Position numbers and translations under genes: made by a program
The notes under the pieces: generated by a model
Seen by the model: the letters and a program-made list of their open reading frames with translations, nothing else
Databases searched by the model: none
Told to the model about the DNA's origin: nothing
Assembly (NCBI GenBank): GCA_937899905.1
Contig: CALCCF010000061.1
Coordinates: forward strand, 1-49,932
DNA length: 49,932 nucleotides
Reading direction: 5' to 3'
Source: an uncultured Phycisphaeraceae bacterium
GTDB lineage: Bacteria; Planctomycetota; Phycisphaerae; Phycisphaerales; UBA1924
Shown here: positions 7,466 through 13,171 of the stretch, piece after piece
Layout of the letters: every line of letters starts with the position of its first letter
Numbering within the stretch: the first letter of the stretch is position 1

Positions 7466-7924
7466 TTATCGAGCCGCCGCGTCGCGTGCTGCGACGGCCA
7501 GCCGATCGGCCCGCTCGTTCTCTGGATGATCGTTGTGGCCGCGGATCCAGTGGAAGCTCAGCGTGTGGGTCGCCATCAGCTCATCAAGCCGCATCCATAG
7601 ATCCTGGTTCTTCACCGGCTGTTTGCTGGCCGTCTTCCATCCTCGCTTCTTCCACGAGGCCATCCACGATTTGAGCCCATTGAGGACATACTGCGAGTCC
7701 GAGTACAGATCGACTCGAGTCGGCTTGCTCAGGGCTTCGAGACCCCTGATGACGGCCATCAACTCCATGCGGTTGTTGGTGGTGTCGCCATCGCCGCCGC
7801 TGCCTTCCTTCTCTGAGTCCGAGGCGGCGTGCTTGAGGATGTACGCCCAGCCGCCCGGCCCCGGGTTTCCGGAACAGGCACCATCGGTGTAGAGCTCAAC
7901 GTGGGGAAGGCCTTCGGCGGTCAT
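7466..7924 (-). CDS. rnhA: Ribonuclease HI
   Basis: A 152-residue type 1 ribonuclease H, which removes the RNA strand of RNA-DNA hybrids such as primers and R-loops. It shows [15 protein letters not shown] at the N terminus. The metal-binding acidic set is D14, E54 (NNRMEL), D76 (YSDSQYV) and D140 (ERADRLA), with the catalytic-loop histidine H130 in [13 protein letters not shown] short GSGGDGD insertion precedes NNRMEL. The gene is divergent from purL, with 72 bases between starts. Its ATG lacks a Shine-Dalgarno sequence but has TAGCAT 6 bases upstream. Confidence 0.96.
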
Positions 7925-7930
7925 CGGGCG

Positions 7931-7936
7931 ATGCTA
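7931..7936 (-). promoter_or_regulatory. Candidate -10 element of rnhA (leaderless type)
   Basis: TAGCAT on the minus strand, 6 bases before the rnhA ATG at 7924. No Shine-Dalgarno site and no clear -35 are visible. It lies in the short divergent gap shared with purL. Confidence 0.45.
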
Positions 7937-7983
7937 ACCGCCCGCGTGTCGTTTGGCTTCTCGGACTCTTCGGGCCGCCGACA

Positions 7984-7989
7984 TACCAT
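7984..7989 (+). promoter_or_regulatory. Candidate -10 element of purL (leaderless type)
   Basis: TACCAT, 7 bases before the ATG at 7997. It overlaps the alternative in-frame ATG at 7988, so if it is the real -10 the start at 7997 is the one used. No Shine-Dalgarno sequence is present before either ATG. Confidence 0.45.
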
Positions 7990-7996
7990 GGCACCT

Positions 7997-10900
7997 ATGC
8001 CAACACATCGCTTCGAAGTCAGGCCGCTCCCCGAGGCCGGCGACCCTCGCGCCCACCGCCTCGTCCGAGAAGCCGCCGCTATGGGCTACGACCTCGAGGC
8101 CGCGCACACCGCCAAGGTGTACCTGCTCGAGGGCGAGCTGACCGAGGACCAACGCCAGGCGATCGCGAGCGCGCTCCTGGTCAACCCGGTCACCGAGAAG
8201 CTGCGCAACGGCCAGCCCGACGCCGAACGGGCAGTCACGCTCGAGGTCCATCCTCTCCCAGGTGTCATGGACCCGGCAGCCCAGTCCGTTGAGGAAGCGA
8301 TCCAGGAGTTGCTGGGCGTGTCCGTGCAGGCCTCGACCGGCGTCCGCTACGACCTCGTCGGCCTTGAAGCCGATTCTGCCAGATCGCTCGCCAGCCGTCT
8401 GCTCTTCAATCCGGTGGTACAGGCGCTCCACCAAGGCGCGTTCCACCCAGATAGCCTGCCCCACGGCACGCCCTACGAGTTCAGCGCGTCCAGCGTGACG
8501 ATCACCAGCCTCGACGACGCCGGCCTGGAGCGCCTGAGCCGCGATGGCCACCTGTTCCTGAGCCTCGGCGAGATGCAGGCAATCCAGGAGCATTACGCCA
8601 CGATCGGGCGCGAGCCGACGGACATCGAGCTGGAGACCCTCGCGCAGACTTGGTCCGAGCACTGCGTCCACAAGACGCTCAAGAGCGACTACCGCTACAT
8701 CGGCCCTGCTGACGACTCCATCGATTGGTCCAACCGACCCGGAGTCACGATCGAAGATGGCTCGGTGCTCGTGGAAAACCTCCTCAAGAACACCGTCGCC
8801 GCCGCGACGCACGAGCTGATCGCCGAGGGCGTCGATTGGGCGCTGTCTGTCTTCCACGACAACTCGGGCGTCATCGCCTTCGACGACGACTACGGCGTGT
8901 GCATCAAGGTGGAGACCCACAACCACCCCAGCGCGCTCGAGCCCTACGGCGGCGCCGCGACGGGCATTGGCGGCTGCATCCGCGACATCATCGGGACTGG
9001 TCTGGCCGCGAAGCCGATCGCCAATACCGACGTGTTCTGCGTCGCCCCGCCCGACACGAGCGATGTGCCCGCCGGTTGCATCCACCCCAAGCGGGTCCTG
9101 CGCGAGGTCGTCGCCGGCGTGCGCGACTACGGCAATCGCATGGGCATCCCCACGCTGAACGGCGCGGTCGACTTTGATCCTCGGTACATTGGCAACCCGC
9201 TCGTCTTCGCGGGCTGCATCGGGCTGATCCCACGCGACAAGATCGACGGCGAGGCCCAGCCCGGCGACCGCATCATCGCCCTCGGCGGCCGCACGGGTCG
9301 CGACGGCATCCACGGCGCAACGTTCTCCAGCGCCGAGCTCAGCGACACGCACGCCGACGAGTTCAGCCACGCCGTGCAGATCGGCAACCCGATCGAGGAA
9401 AAGAAGGTCCTCGACGCCATCATGCGGGCACGCGACGAGCACGAGCGGCCGCTGTTTAGAGCGATCACCGACTGCGGTGCCGGCGGGTTTTCGAGCGCCG
9501 TTGGCGAGATGGGCGAGAAGCTCGGAGCCGACGTCCAACTCGATCGTGCCCCGCTCAAGTACGCGGGGCTGACGTACACCGAGATCTGGATCAGCGAGGC
9601 CCAGGAACGCATGATCCTGGCCGTTCCCGAAGCCAACATCGCTGCGCTGCAGTCGATCTGCGATGAGGAAGGCGTCGAACTCGCCGACCTTGGCCACTAC
9701 GGCACGCCGGGCTCCGAACTGATCCTGCGTTACGGCGAGCATGAGGTGGGTCGCCTGCCGATGGAGTTCGTGCACGGCGGCATCCCACGAGAGACGCTCG
9801 AAGCCGCATGGACGCCGAAGGCTCCAGCGACGAAGAACGGCAGCGAACCGAGCACCGGTGACGCTCTTCTGAAGCTCCTCGCCCAACCATCGATCGCCAG
9901 CAAGCATTGGATCATCCGCCAGTACGACCACGAGGTGCAGGGCAACACGGTCATCAAGCCGTTGGTGGGCCCGCCCGCCGAAGACGGCGCGAGCCGAGGG
10001 CCGGGCGATGCGTCGGTCATCGAGCCCGTGCCCGGCACCGGCCGCGGCGTGGCGATCGGCTGCGGCTTGCAGACCCGCGTCGGTGATCCGCAAGTTGGTG
10101 GCGACTCGTACCTCATGGCGCTCGCGGCCATCGACGAGTGCGTGCGCAACCTCGTGTGTGTCGGAGCCGACCCCAGCCGCATCGCCATCCTGGACAACTT
10201 CTGCTGGCCGGGCGTGAAAGACGCCGAGAGCCTGGGCCATCTCGTGCGATCGGCCATCGGCTGCTACGACGGAGCGAAGGCCTACCGCACGCCGTTCGTG
10301 AGCGGCAAGGACTCGCTGAATAACCAATTCCGCACTGAGGACGGCCGGACGATCCGCATCCCGCCCACGCTGCTGATCACGGGGCTCGGCATTGTTCCGG
10401 ATGTGCGCAAGTGCGTAACGAGCGATGCGAAGCGCGACGGTAACACACTGCTCTTCATTGACACCATCCACGAAGACACTGACCAATGGGTGGCTGATCT
10501 CACAAGCATGGGCAACTCACTCTACAGCAGCGTGTTGGGCCAGAAGCAGGGGACGAACCCCCGTGTGCCTCGTATCAACCCGGAGCGCTGTGCGGCAACA
10601 GCACGCTGTGTCGCAGGATTGCTCGCGAGTGGCGAGGCTCGGTCCGCTCACGATGTGTCCGATGGTGGTGCACTGGTGACGATCGCGGAGATGCTCATCG
10701 CGGGATCGACCGAGTCGCAAATGCTCGGGGCTTCACTCAACTGCGAGTTTTACGGCGAGGCCGGAAGCACGGGGTACATTTTTGGCGAGCGCGCAGGGGG
10801 CTACATCGTCGAGGTAGGCAACCCATCTCGGGCGATGGACGTGCTCTCGAAGCTGCAGGAAGAGCATGGCCAGTGCCTTGGTACCAACATACTGGGCCCT

Positions 10901-10999
10901 GTCACGAACTCCGGCATTCTCGAAGTCGACTCTTCCAACGACATGCGGATACCTGTTGAGGAACTCGTGGCGGCGTGGCGGGGTCCACTCGATTGGTGA
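7997..10999 (+). CDS. purL: Phosphoribosylformylglycinamidine synthase PurL with fused N-terminal tandem PurS-like modules
   Basis: A 1000-residue enzyme for the fourth step of purine synthesis (FGAR to FGAM, using ATP and ammonia). Residues 1-75 and 80-155 are two similar PurS-type modules: each has a VxPLP...DP start and an LLxNPV end. The PurL core follows, with TWSEHCVHKTLKSDYRY, KVETHNHPSALEPYGGAATG and the second ATP-grasp-like half with GKDSLNNQF and AHDVSDGG. There is no C-terminal glutaminase domain, so a separate PurQ must supply ammonia; none is in the window. Possible starts are ATG at 7988 (MAPMPTHR) or 7997 (MPTHRFEV). I chose 7997 because of the -10-like TACCAT. The longer reading from 7829 would overlap rnhA and is rejected. 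The function is certain. Confidence 0.95.
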   Translation: MPTHRFEVRPLPEAGDPRAHRLVREAAAMGYDLEAAHTAKVYLLEGELTEDQRQAIASALLVNPVTEKLRNGQPDAERAVTLEVHPLPGVMDPAAQSVEEAIQELLGVSVQASTGVRYDLVGLEADSARSLASRLLFNPVVQALHQGAFHPDSLPHGTPYEFSASSVTITSLDDAGLERLSRDGHLFLSLGEMQAIQEHYATIGREPTDIELETLAQTWSEHCVHKTLKSDYRYIGPADDSIDWSNRPGVTIEDGSVLVENLLKNTVAAATHELIAEGVDWALSVFHDNSGVIAFDDDYGVCIKVETHNHPSALEPYGGAATGIGGCIRDIIGTGLAAKPIANTDVFCVAPPDTSDVPAGCIHPKRVLREVVAGVRDYGNRMGIPTLNGAVDFDPRYIGNPLVFAGCIGLIPRDKIDGEAQPGDRIIALGGRTGRDGIHGATFSSAELSDTHADEFSHAVQIGNPIEEKKVLDAIMRARDEHERPLFRAITDCGAGGFSSAVGEMGEKLGADVQLDRAPLKYAGLTYTEIWISEAQERMILAVPEANIAALQSICDEEGVELADLGHYGTPGSELILRYGEHEVGRLPMEFVHGGIPRETLEAAWTPKAPATKNGSEPSTGDALLKLLAQPSIASKHWIIRQYDHEVQGNTVIKPLVGPPAEDGASRGPGDASVIEPVPGTGRGVAIGCGLQTRVGDPQVGGDSYLMALAAIDECVRNLVCVGADPSRIAILDNFCWPGVKDAESLGHLVRSAIGCYDGAKAYRTPFVSGKDSLNNQFRTEDGRTIRIPPTLLITGLGIVPDVRKCVTSDAKRDGNTLLFIDTIHEDTDQWVADLTSMGNSLYSSVLGQKQGTNPRVPRINPERCAATARCVAGLLASGEARSAHDVSDGGALVTIAEMLIAGSTESQMLGASLNCEFYGEAGSTGYIFGERAGGYIVEVGNPSRAMDVLSKLQEEHGQCLGTNILGPVTNSGILEVDSSNDMRIPVEELVAAWRGPLDW

Positions 11000-11011
11000 G
11001 CGCATAGGACA

Positions 11012-11031
11012 GCCCAGGCTTGCGCCTGGGC
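11012..11031. terminator. Hairpin between convergent purL and the 88-residue gene
   Basis: Perfect 8-bp stem GCCCAGGC/GCCTGGGC with loop TTGC, 12 bases after the purL stop and 21 bases from the stop of the convergent small gene. No T-tract follows on either strand, so it may be a weak bidirectional terminator or an RNA-end stabiliser. Confidence 0.5.
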
Positions 11032-11052
11032 CTCGTTGGGATTTCGACTTTG

Positions 11053-11319
11053 TTAGAAGATCATGGGTGGGCCGGCGCGATCGCTCGCGCTCGTGCGGCC
11101 CTCGATCACGCGTCGCTCACGATCGGAGACGACGCCTGGCACGCTGACCACGCCCAGGCGCGCGTTGATCGCGAAACAGGCCCGTTTGAACAGCCGGCAT
11201 AGCCCAACAAAGCGCGTGATCTTCCAGAGGTTGCGCACGATGGTGGCAACGCTCGCGATCAGTGACGCGTCGATGAGCGTGGGCATCCAGGTGTCGGCGA
11301 GGCGGGTCAACGAACTCAT
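11053..11319 (-). CDS. Small hypothetical protein with one hydrophobic segment (88 residues)
   Basis: I do not recognise this protein. The ATG at 11319-11317 has a strong ribosome binding site (GAAAGGAG, 7 bases before the start), better than most genes nearby. That is why I prefer this frame to the overlapping plus-strand ORF and to the longer 114-residue reading from 11397. Residues 10-30 (TWMPTLIDASLIASVATIVRN) form a possible amphipathic or membrane helix. A basic stretch with KITRFVGLCRLFKRACF follows, and the C-terminal third is polar. It is the second gene of a short unit headed by a 27-residue ORF and a consensus-like promoter at 11643-11670. It converges on purL. It could be a small membrane-associated protein; function unknown. 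Confidence 0.55.
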   Translation of the reverse strand: MSSLTRLADTWMPTLIDASLIASVATIVRNLWKITRFVGLCRLFKRACFAINARLGVVSVPGVVSDRERRVIEGRTSASDRAGPPMIF

Positions 11320-11436
11320 GGCAAGGCTCCTTTCGACCACAGGCGGGCACGCCGGCGGCCGAGTGACAGGCCCGAACCACGAACGCAACATGCGCACGGA
11401 TCCGGACCACGGATGTGTTGTGTGGGTGGCGACAGC

Positions 11437-11452
11437 GCCGCAAAAGTGCGGC
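11437..11452 (-). other. Hairpin upstream of the 88-residue gene
   Basis: GCCGCA/TGCGGC, a 6-bp stem with a 4-base loop (ctttt-type on the minus strand), about 118 bases before the ATG of the 88-residue gene. Together with the hairpin at 11479-11493 it makes up a structured spacer between the two small ORFs. Confidence 0.35.
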
Positions 11453-11478
11453 GAGGTCTGAGGATGGGCTAGGTGCTG

Positions 11479-11493
11479 GCCGGCCTTGCCGGC
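11479..11493 (-). other. Hairpin just after the 27-residue ORF
   Basis: GCCGGC/GCCGGC with a 3-base loop begins 6 bases after the TAG of the 27-residue ORF. It has no T-tract. Its position right after a short ORF would suit attenuation or transcript protection, but nothing proves either. Confidence 0.35.
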
Positions 11494-11498
11494 TCCGC

Positions 11499-11582
11499 CT
11501 ACGCGATCAGGTGATCACGGAGGAGTTGCGTCGAGAGACCGCGCACCGTGCCGATTGCCGGGGTGTTCTGGGTGGTCTTCAT
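11499..11582 (-). CDS. Possible short peptide ORF (27 residues)
   Basis: The ATG at 11582-11580 is preceded by GAGAGGAGG with about 8 bases of spacing, one of the best Shine-Dalgarno sites in the window. The product is 27 residues, beginning MKTTQNTPAIGTVRG and ending LLRDHLIA, then TAG. It has no signal peptide and no run of one amino acid of the kind seen in classical attenuator leader peptides. It sits about 54 bases downstream of the predicted transcription start of the promoter at 11643-11670 and is followed by two hairpins and the 88-residue gene. It may be a functional micropeptide or a leader peptide. It is too short for composition to support it; the ribosome site and promoter are the evidence. 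Confidence 0.45.
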   Translation of the reverse strand: MKTTQNTPAIGTVRGLSTQLLRDHLIA

Positions 11583-11606
11583 ATCGACGCCTCCTCTCGG
11601 CCCGCG

Positions 11607-11620
11607 ATCCCGGTCGGGAT
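11607..11620 (-). other. 5'-leader hairpin of the small-protein unit
   Basis: ATCCC/GGGAT inverted repeat (5 bp, 4-base loop; a sixth G:C closes it to a 2-base loop). It lies between the predicted transcription start and the Shine-Dalgarno sequence of the 27-residue ORF. Confidence 0.35.
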
Positions 11621-11642
11621 GGGGGCATGTCTCTTGGGGAGA

Positions 11643-11670
11643 ACCGTATCGGCGAAATCGCCTATGTCAA
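11643..11670 (-). promoter_or_regulatory. Sigma-70-type promoter of the small-protein unit
   Basis: On the minus strand a perfect TTGACA (11670-11665), 16 bases, then TACGGT (11648-11643). It lies between the stop of the NtrC-type regulator gene (11702) and the 27-residue ORF. It would give the two small ORFs their own transcript with a leader of about 54 bases. Confidence 0.6.
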
Positions 11671-11701
11671 TCCACAGGCGAATGAAGAAGTTGTGAACTG
11701 G

Positions 11702-13171
<1,470 letters not shown>

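Follow-up and report, generated by a model that had tools for sequence, protein, structure and literature searches.

Leaders that fold and contain a short upstream open reading frame (ORF) have been described before. The short ORF toiL of Escherichia coli topAI-yjhQ is part of a 5′ region that folds upstream of the gene under control, and it has been proposed that this fold and the ribosome's position on the ORF determine expression, in coupling with Rho termination (PMC12121999). The mgtCBR leader of Salmonella is long, and translation of its short ORFs is held to alter the stem-loops and hence downstream transcription (PMC3641672).

Here, we analyze a locus of an uncultured Phycisphaeraceae bacterium, located in a 49,932-nt stretch of DNA that we call the window and that corresponds to contig C61 in a draft genome of 3.63 Mb. 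To our knowledge, few studies of Planctomycetes have dealt with small genes or with RNA regulation. The locus sits between the ends of two genes that we take, from reading their sequences, to be an NtrC-type regulator (11702-13171, minus strand) and the convergent purL (7829-10999, plus strand). The first-pass annotation had listed a TTGACA-16-TACGGT promoter, a leader hairpin, ORFs of 27 and 88 residues (ORF1 and ORF2), two 6-bp hairpins, and an end hairpin in this gap, and direct reading of the minus strand found every one of them where it had been placed or immediately beside it (Table 1). On the sequence comparisons below, the unit is a small-protein gene that is conserved in, and specific to, one genus, with a predicted promoter of its own and a structured leader in which a putative short ORF lies. 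It would add to the planctomycetes a small-protein family absent from the libraries searched, together with a probably regulatory leader, and it illustrates that a unit under selection can occupy an apparently empty gap.

Table 1. Features of the unit in window coordinates, from the promoter to the end hairpin.
Feature	Position	Strand	Description
Promoter	11643-11670	-	-35 TTGACA at 11670-11665; 16-nt spacer; -10 TACGGT at 11648-11643
Leader hairpin P1	about 11600-11626	-	Directly upstream of the ORF1 ribosome site
ORF1 ribosome site	11590-11598	-	GAGAGGAGG; direct reading
ORF1	11499-11582	-	27 codons, MKTTQNTPAIGTVRGLSTQLLRDHLIA; interpreted as a leader (upstream) ORF
Hairpin P2	11520-11596	-	Predicted to pair ORF1-internal TCTCGACGC..CTCC with the ORF1 ribosome site as far as the start codon
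Hairpin P3	11502-11519	-	3′ end of ORF1; single-sequence fold; hairpins also here in several relatives
Hairpin P4	11479-11493	-	GCCGGC-AAG-GCCGGC; directly after the ORF1 stop
Spacer hairpin	11437-11452	-	GCCGCA-CTTTT-TGCGGC; kept only partly in relatives
ORF2 ribosome site	11327-11334	-	GAAAGGAG; direct reading
ORF2	11053-11319	-	88 codons; small basic helical protein, possibly membrane-associated
End hairpin	11012-11031	-	GCCCAGGC-GCAA-GCCTGGGC; between ORF2 and convergent purL; without a T-run on the minus strand

By computation, the unit is conserved throughout its genus. Homologs of ORF2 were found in all seven genus genomes (E 1.8e-13 or better) at 43-65% identity to the window copy, and a search at E 0.01 returned one match per genome. 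Upstream of ORF2, all seven carry TTGAC-N17-TANNGT at the corresponding place, followed by a purine-rich ribosome site, a short ORF, and a spacer of 177-231 nt, and the order of promoter, ORF1, spacer, and ORF2 is identical in each. The counterparts of ORF1, which were located by position in the other genomes, are 24, 25, 25, 27, 32, 33, or 40 codons long, and a short ORF with a ribosome site keeps its place between promoter and main gene in 7/7. Both frames stand side by side in every genus genome, and this conservation, together with the purifying selection on ORF2 described below, bears out the earlier view of the locus as a real small-protein transcription unit.

The promoter call rests on its conservation across the seven genomes because the -10 element is poor and a simple sigma-70 consensus scan of positions 10900-11800 on both strands, for the same reason, returned no promoter-like site. 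The first-pass description of a consensus promoter holds for the -35 element, which is a full TTGACA, but not for the -10 element TACGGT. A similar split applies to the assertion that the two ribosome sites both rank with the strongest of the window. The comparison took the best start that could be located for every one of 26 window genes, which biases the control toward the genes; the ORF1 site was matched or beaten by only 2 of them, but 13 were as strong as or stronger than the ORF2 site. The ORF1 site alone is therefore unusually strong, and that of ORF2 is of ordinary strength.

The end of ORF2 faces the end of purL in six of the seven genomes. In the seventh, G120, the copy is instead flanked by a thioredoxin-like gene and a glyceraldehyde-3-phosphate dehydrogenase gene (all gene identities by reading). 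Given 800 nt of flank per side, the local alignment between the window and G120 begins 3 nt before the -35 element and ends at position 616 of 618, leaving out the last two bases of the ORF2 stop, and the 250-nt flanks align weakly, with scores of 24 and 18 vs. 350 for the unit. From these boundaries, we take the unit of conservation to extend from the promoter to the ORF2 stop. The other five pairs give less clean boundaries because the neighboring purL is drawn into the alignment. Against the window, the top-scoring local alignment starts at -10 in G083, -21 in G121, and -16 in G109, runs through the NtrC-type gene in G122, and starts only at +252 in G023.

Some further observations concern the surroundings of the unit. 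In G120 (L057), where the unit lies near 7550-8300, the end hairpin differs and contains T, and the stretch from promoter to ORF2 stop is alignable. The window's own end hairpin has near-copies elsewhere in its genome (G000:C25:20528-20555 and G000:C73:70375-70400) and is perhaps a repeated intergenic hairpin of that genome. Directly upstream of the unit, four of the seven genus genomes (G083, G023, G109, and G121; L055, L056, L054, and L058, respectively) carry a further 40-residue ORF (MKNII..P.TTA.SL..AT.WA..GL...), which starts 274-299 nt upstream of the ORF1 start, has an identical TCAAGGAGCGTTCACC before its own start, and precedes a GC hairpin that has a T-run. At E 0.01, this ORF had no match in the other three genus genomes or in 156 other family genomes.

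A profile of ORF2 searched against 163 family genomes recovered the seven genus members, none with an E-value above 1.4e-34, followed by two matches at E 9e-4 and 0.0019; in 400 order genomes (family included), these nine reappeared with two additional matches at 0.005-0.0065. These four outside matches (G019, G146, G203, and G367) lie in frames of 307 and 263 aa in two cases, across a stop in one, and in a 65-aa frame in one, and we treat them as chance because that many genomes were searched. The profile thus found nothing convincing in the 156 other family genomes or the order sample. With the single ORF2 sequence as query, 61 of 120 family genomes gave matches at E 1 or better, the best outside the genus being 0.006, and the profile applied to 29 purL loci (28 of them from beyond the genus, including two short ones) returned the G023 copy and then E 0.018. 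A pattern-based scan found no ORF2 relatives on viral contigs and returned only two genus members from genome contigs. Because all seven genus genomes keep the unit and no convincing copy was found outside, we consider it a candidate genus-defining trait.

Pfam, NCBIfam, PHROGs, and PDB likewise gave no convincing match to ORF2, with zero matches for the window's copy in Pfam, zero in PDB, and one of the seven members matching in NCBIfam (E 0.043) and one in PHROGs (E 0.055). The ORF2 protein family appears to be undescribed in these four libraries. Rfam gave no match in the window at gathering scores, and the unit did not come up in literature searches on small proteins and leaders of Planctomycetes and Phycisphaera, which would miss an unnamed catalogue entry. 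A covariance model of the leader recovered all seven genus genomes at E 1.6e-14 or better, as expected given that it was built from these sequences, and matched 51 of the 156 other family genomes at E 4.5e-4 to 0.5. Eight of the 51 places were read, and all lie in or at the start of other genes (by reading, pilus-assembly-like, citrate-synthase-like, and csrA-like genes and others), so these eight are treated as chance. They include a match in G005 (L070; E 0.012) at the start of a csrA-like gene, which is preceded by a short frame and a GAGAGGAG-like site.

Within the genus, ORF2 behaves as a conserved protein-coding gene. In addition to its homologs in every genome, its dN/dS (Nei-Gojobori) was 0.32-0.87 with a median of 0.50 and fell below 1 in 21/21 pairs, indicating purifying selection. 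The product is 87-94 residues long across the genus and carries a net charge of +6 to +8. Its alignment has 25 invariant columns, with the invariant residues clustered in RFVGLxRLF, NARLGxV, and the tail. The core RFVGLxRLF...NARLG is conserved, the tail ends in P-M-[ILV]-F in 7/7, and the C-terminal phenylalanine is invariant. A membrane association, as had been suggested for ORF2, is plausible but borderline, since the best 19-residue hydropathy mean is 1.44-1.66. This most hydrophobic window covers residues 47-65 in the window's own copy (1.47) and falls within residues 13-38 in the other six. A structure model predicts a long helix at 3-55 and a short helix at 66-78, at poor quality (pLDDT 67, pTM 0.29). 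With the positive-inside rule as the basis for the topology, a single-span or surface-bound membrane protein with its charged tail in the cytoplasm would fit.

To judge by the same alignments, ORF2 is kept as a protein, and ORF1 is without sign of being kept as a peptide. The dN/dS of ORF1 (Nei-Gojobori) was 0.52-1.91 with a median of 1.15 over 21 pairs, where single values are noisy because each pair offers only 24-33 comparable codons, and many pairs show strong divergence at synonymous sites. The idea that the sequence of ORF1 is conserved as a micropeptide was rejected, in view of a dN/dS of about 1 and a protein search in which, among 120 family genomes, every match after the window's own copy had an E-value of 0.214 or higher. 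The choice between micropeptide and leader that the first-pass annotation had offered for ORF1 leans to leader, given a dN/dS of about 1 and a start region that falls in a predicted hairpin.

The strongest alternative is a two-gene operon, in which ORF1 would encode a functional micropeptide of 24-40 residues, ORF2 its partner, and the hairpin would only tune ORF1 translation. This would explain why ORF1 is open with a purine-rich ribosome site and an ATG in 7/7, and the close pair G083 and G023, which differ by 3 nt within ORF1 and by 1-nt gaps in leader and spacer, points the same way. So does a core of VLGLS[TA]L in four of the seven genomes and VRGLSTQ in the window's own, as well as a last residue that is alanine in six. 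However, this core differs in G083 and G023, no amino-acid constraint was detected on ORF1 in the 21 pairs, and the nucleotides of ORF1 are partly kept, with GGTCTCTCG identical in 5/7 down to the third base of GGT. We therefore consider a functional ORF1 micropeptide unlikely.

Folding of the leader centers on P2, which is likely real according to the fold models. In single folds of 98-114-nt segments, P1, which lies before the ribosome site, and P2 both formed in 7/7 leaders. P1 is absent from some longer folds, and its sequence varies in a region where the alignment is poor. P2 formed in six of the seven in each of the longer folds, missing in G109 for the full leader and in G023 for the stretch to the ORF1 stop. 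The RNAalifold consensus is P2, with a slightly unfavorable covariation term of +0.17; for the whole leader the term was +1.85. The consensus fold of P4 has five pairs, three of them paired in 7/7 sequences and two in 6/7. In the outer helix of P2 (helix 1), 92.1% of cells are paired and two of the nine pairs are changed on both sides, and the whole structure is 88.6% paired vs. 28.6-49.5% for slid versions. Among 500 shuffles, the observed value was reached by 1 for the percentage paired, 12 for the covariation score, 23 for double-changed cells, 186 for the number of double-changed pairs, and 497 for the number of pair types. The covariation support for P2 is thin, as these counts come from seven related sequences only.

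Against dinucleotide shuffles, leader fold energies had z-scores of -2.73 to -0.38, the weakest three being -0.38, -1.03, and -1.11, and against shuffled ORF1 codons the mean energy z-score was -0.83, with one genome positive. The ORF1 start region was more closed than the codon-shuffled mean in all seven genomes, ranking 23, 45, 47, 13, 20, 47, and 109 of 300. Among 50 ordinary gene starts of the window's own genome, 1 to 11 were as closed as the respective ORF1 start and 7 to 32 were as stable, so that the stability of the ORF1 starts is not out of the ordinary. An RNA thermometer was considered and set aside on general grounds, the outer stem looking too GC-rich and stable for one.

That the ORF1 region is conserved in its nucleotides and predicted to be structured would also be expected if ORF1 were untranslated, with the region acting as a structured 5′ leader, or as a small RNA from the same promoter, in which GGAGG serves pairing. 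Open frames of 24-40 codons are not rare in GC-rich DNA. Still, an ATG stands at a usable distance from the purine-rich site in 7/7, although the spacing shifts in the window's own genome and in G122, and we regard an untranslated ORF1 as decidedly improbable.

Our preferred reading, to which we assign a probability of roughly one half, is that the minus strand from 11670 to 11012 forms one transcription unit with ORF2 as its product and ORF1 as a regulatory leader ORF. We infer that this unit is transcribed and translated, that the ORF2 product is located at a membrane, possibly held at the inner membrane, and that a regulatory step connects the two ORFs. In that step, ORF1's own codons would lock its ribosome site in P2, as far as the start codon, making translation of ORF1 conditional. 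How frequently ORF1 is translated, and where its ribosome stands, would then determine the fold of the roughly 180-230-nt spacer and, through it, the amount of ORF2. The most plausible route would be premature termination or RNA stability, not hiding of the ORF2 ribosome site.

Masking of the main gene's ribosome site is the defining feature of an Erm-type attenuator, and translation attenuation of this sort, in which the ORF2 site would stay masked until ORF1 is translated, is not supported by the fold model. Locally, the ORF2 site is unpaired at 0.30-0.57 and is not unusually closed. Covering ORF1 in the full-leader fold model shifts the openness of the ORF2 site by -0.10 to +0.06, and a ribosome placed at the ORF1 stop shifts it by -0.07 to +0.19. 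The largest opening, from 0.29 to 0.48, belongs to the window's own copy and is not common to most relatives. Because the site is ordinary in openness and does not open consistently, a switch acting on ORF2 translation is unsupported; in the fold model, the leader lacks the masked main-gene site, freed by ribosomes on the short ORF, of the Erm/toiL type. In raw composition, the spacer has C at 0.38-0.44 and G at 0.29-0.34, with C exceeding G in 7/7, and its best 78-nt stretch has C at 0.46-0.55 and G at 0.19-0.28. Rho-type attenuation in this C-rich spacer is a suggestion.

A more far-reaching proposal is that a short ORF whose ribosome site is locked by its own codons would form a translation-dependent gate, and with it a new kind of cis-acting leader in planctomycetes, in which the gated gene is unmasked, genus-specific, and encodes a membrane protein, and selection on the ORF acts on its RNA rather than on its peptide. 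We advance this tentatively and consider it somewhat doubtful.

The small, basic, and partly hydrophobic ORF2 product, the predicted pairing of the leader ribosome site, and the narrow distribution of the unit would also be in keeping with a type I-like toxin-antitoxin system, in which ORF2 is a membrane-acting toxin controlled by ORF1 translation or by an antisense RNA. However, ORF2 has one match per genus genome at E 0.01 and is present in all seven, a distribution that is not patchy. Moreover, the opposite strand of 10900-11800 showed no promoter-like site, in a scan that also misses the conserved promoter, there is no viral-contig relative, and the ORF2 ribosome site is not unusually closed. 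A toxin-antitoxin function is, on these grounds, very improbable. Chance assembly of small ORFs and hairpins in intergenic DNA that is rich in GC, where each feature alone is common, is scarcely credible, being contradicted by the presence of the unit in 7/7 genomes, the selection on ORF2, and the boundaries of the relocated copy.

Compared with orphan small bacterial membrane proteins, ORF2 is alike in being shorter than 100 residues, having a borderline single hydrophobic segment, occurring in one genus only, and being absent from the family libraries searched. It is unlike them in its conserved leader and in its conserved C-terminal P-M-[ILV]-F tail, present in 7/7. The ORF1 leader of our preferred reading resembles both toiL and the mgtCBR leader in layout, a short ORF in a folded leader (PMC12121999; PMC3641672). 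The mgtCBR leader has two short ORFs and known signals (ATP, proline codons), whereas the present leader has a single short ORF without an evident codon run (PMC3641672). With toiL, the fold occludes the ribosome site of the main gene, whereas here no masking of ORF2 was found, and the site predicted to be paired is the short ORF's own (PMC12121999).
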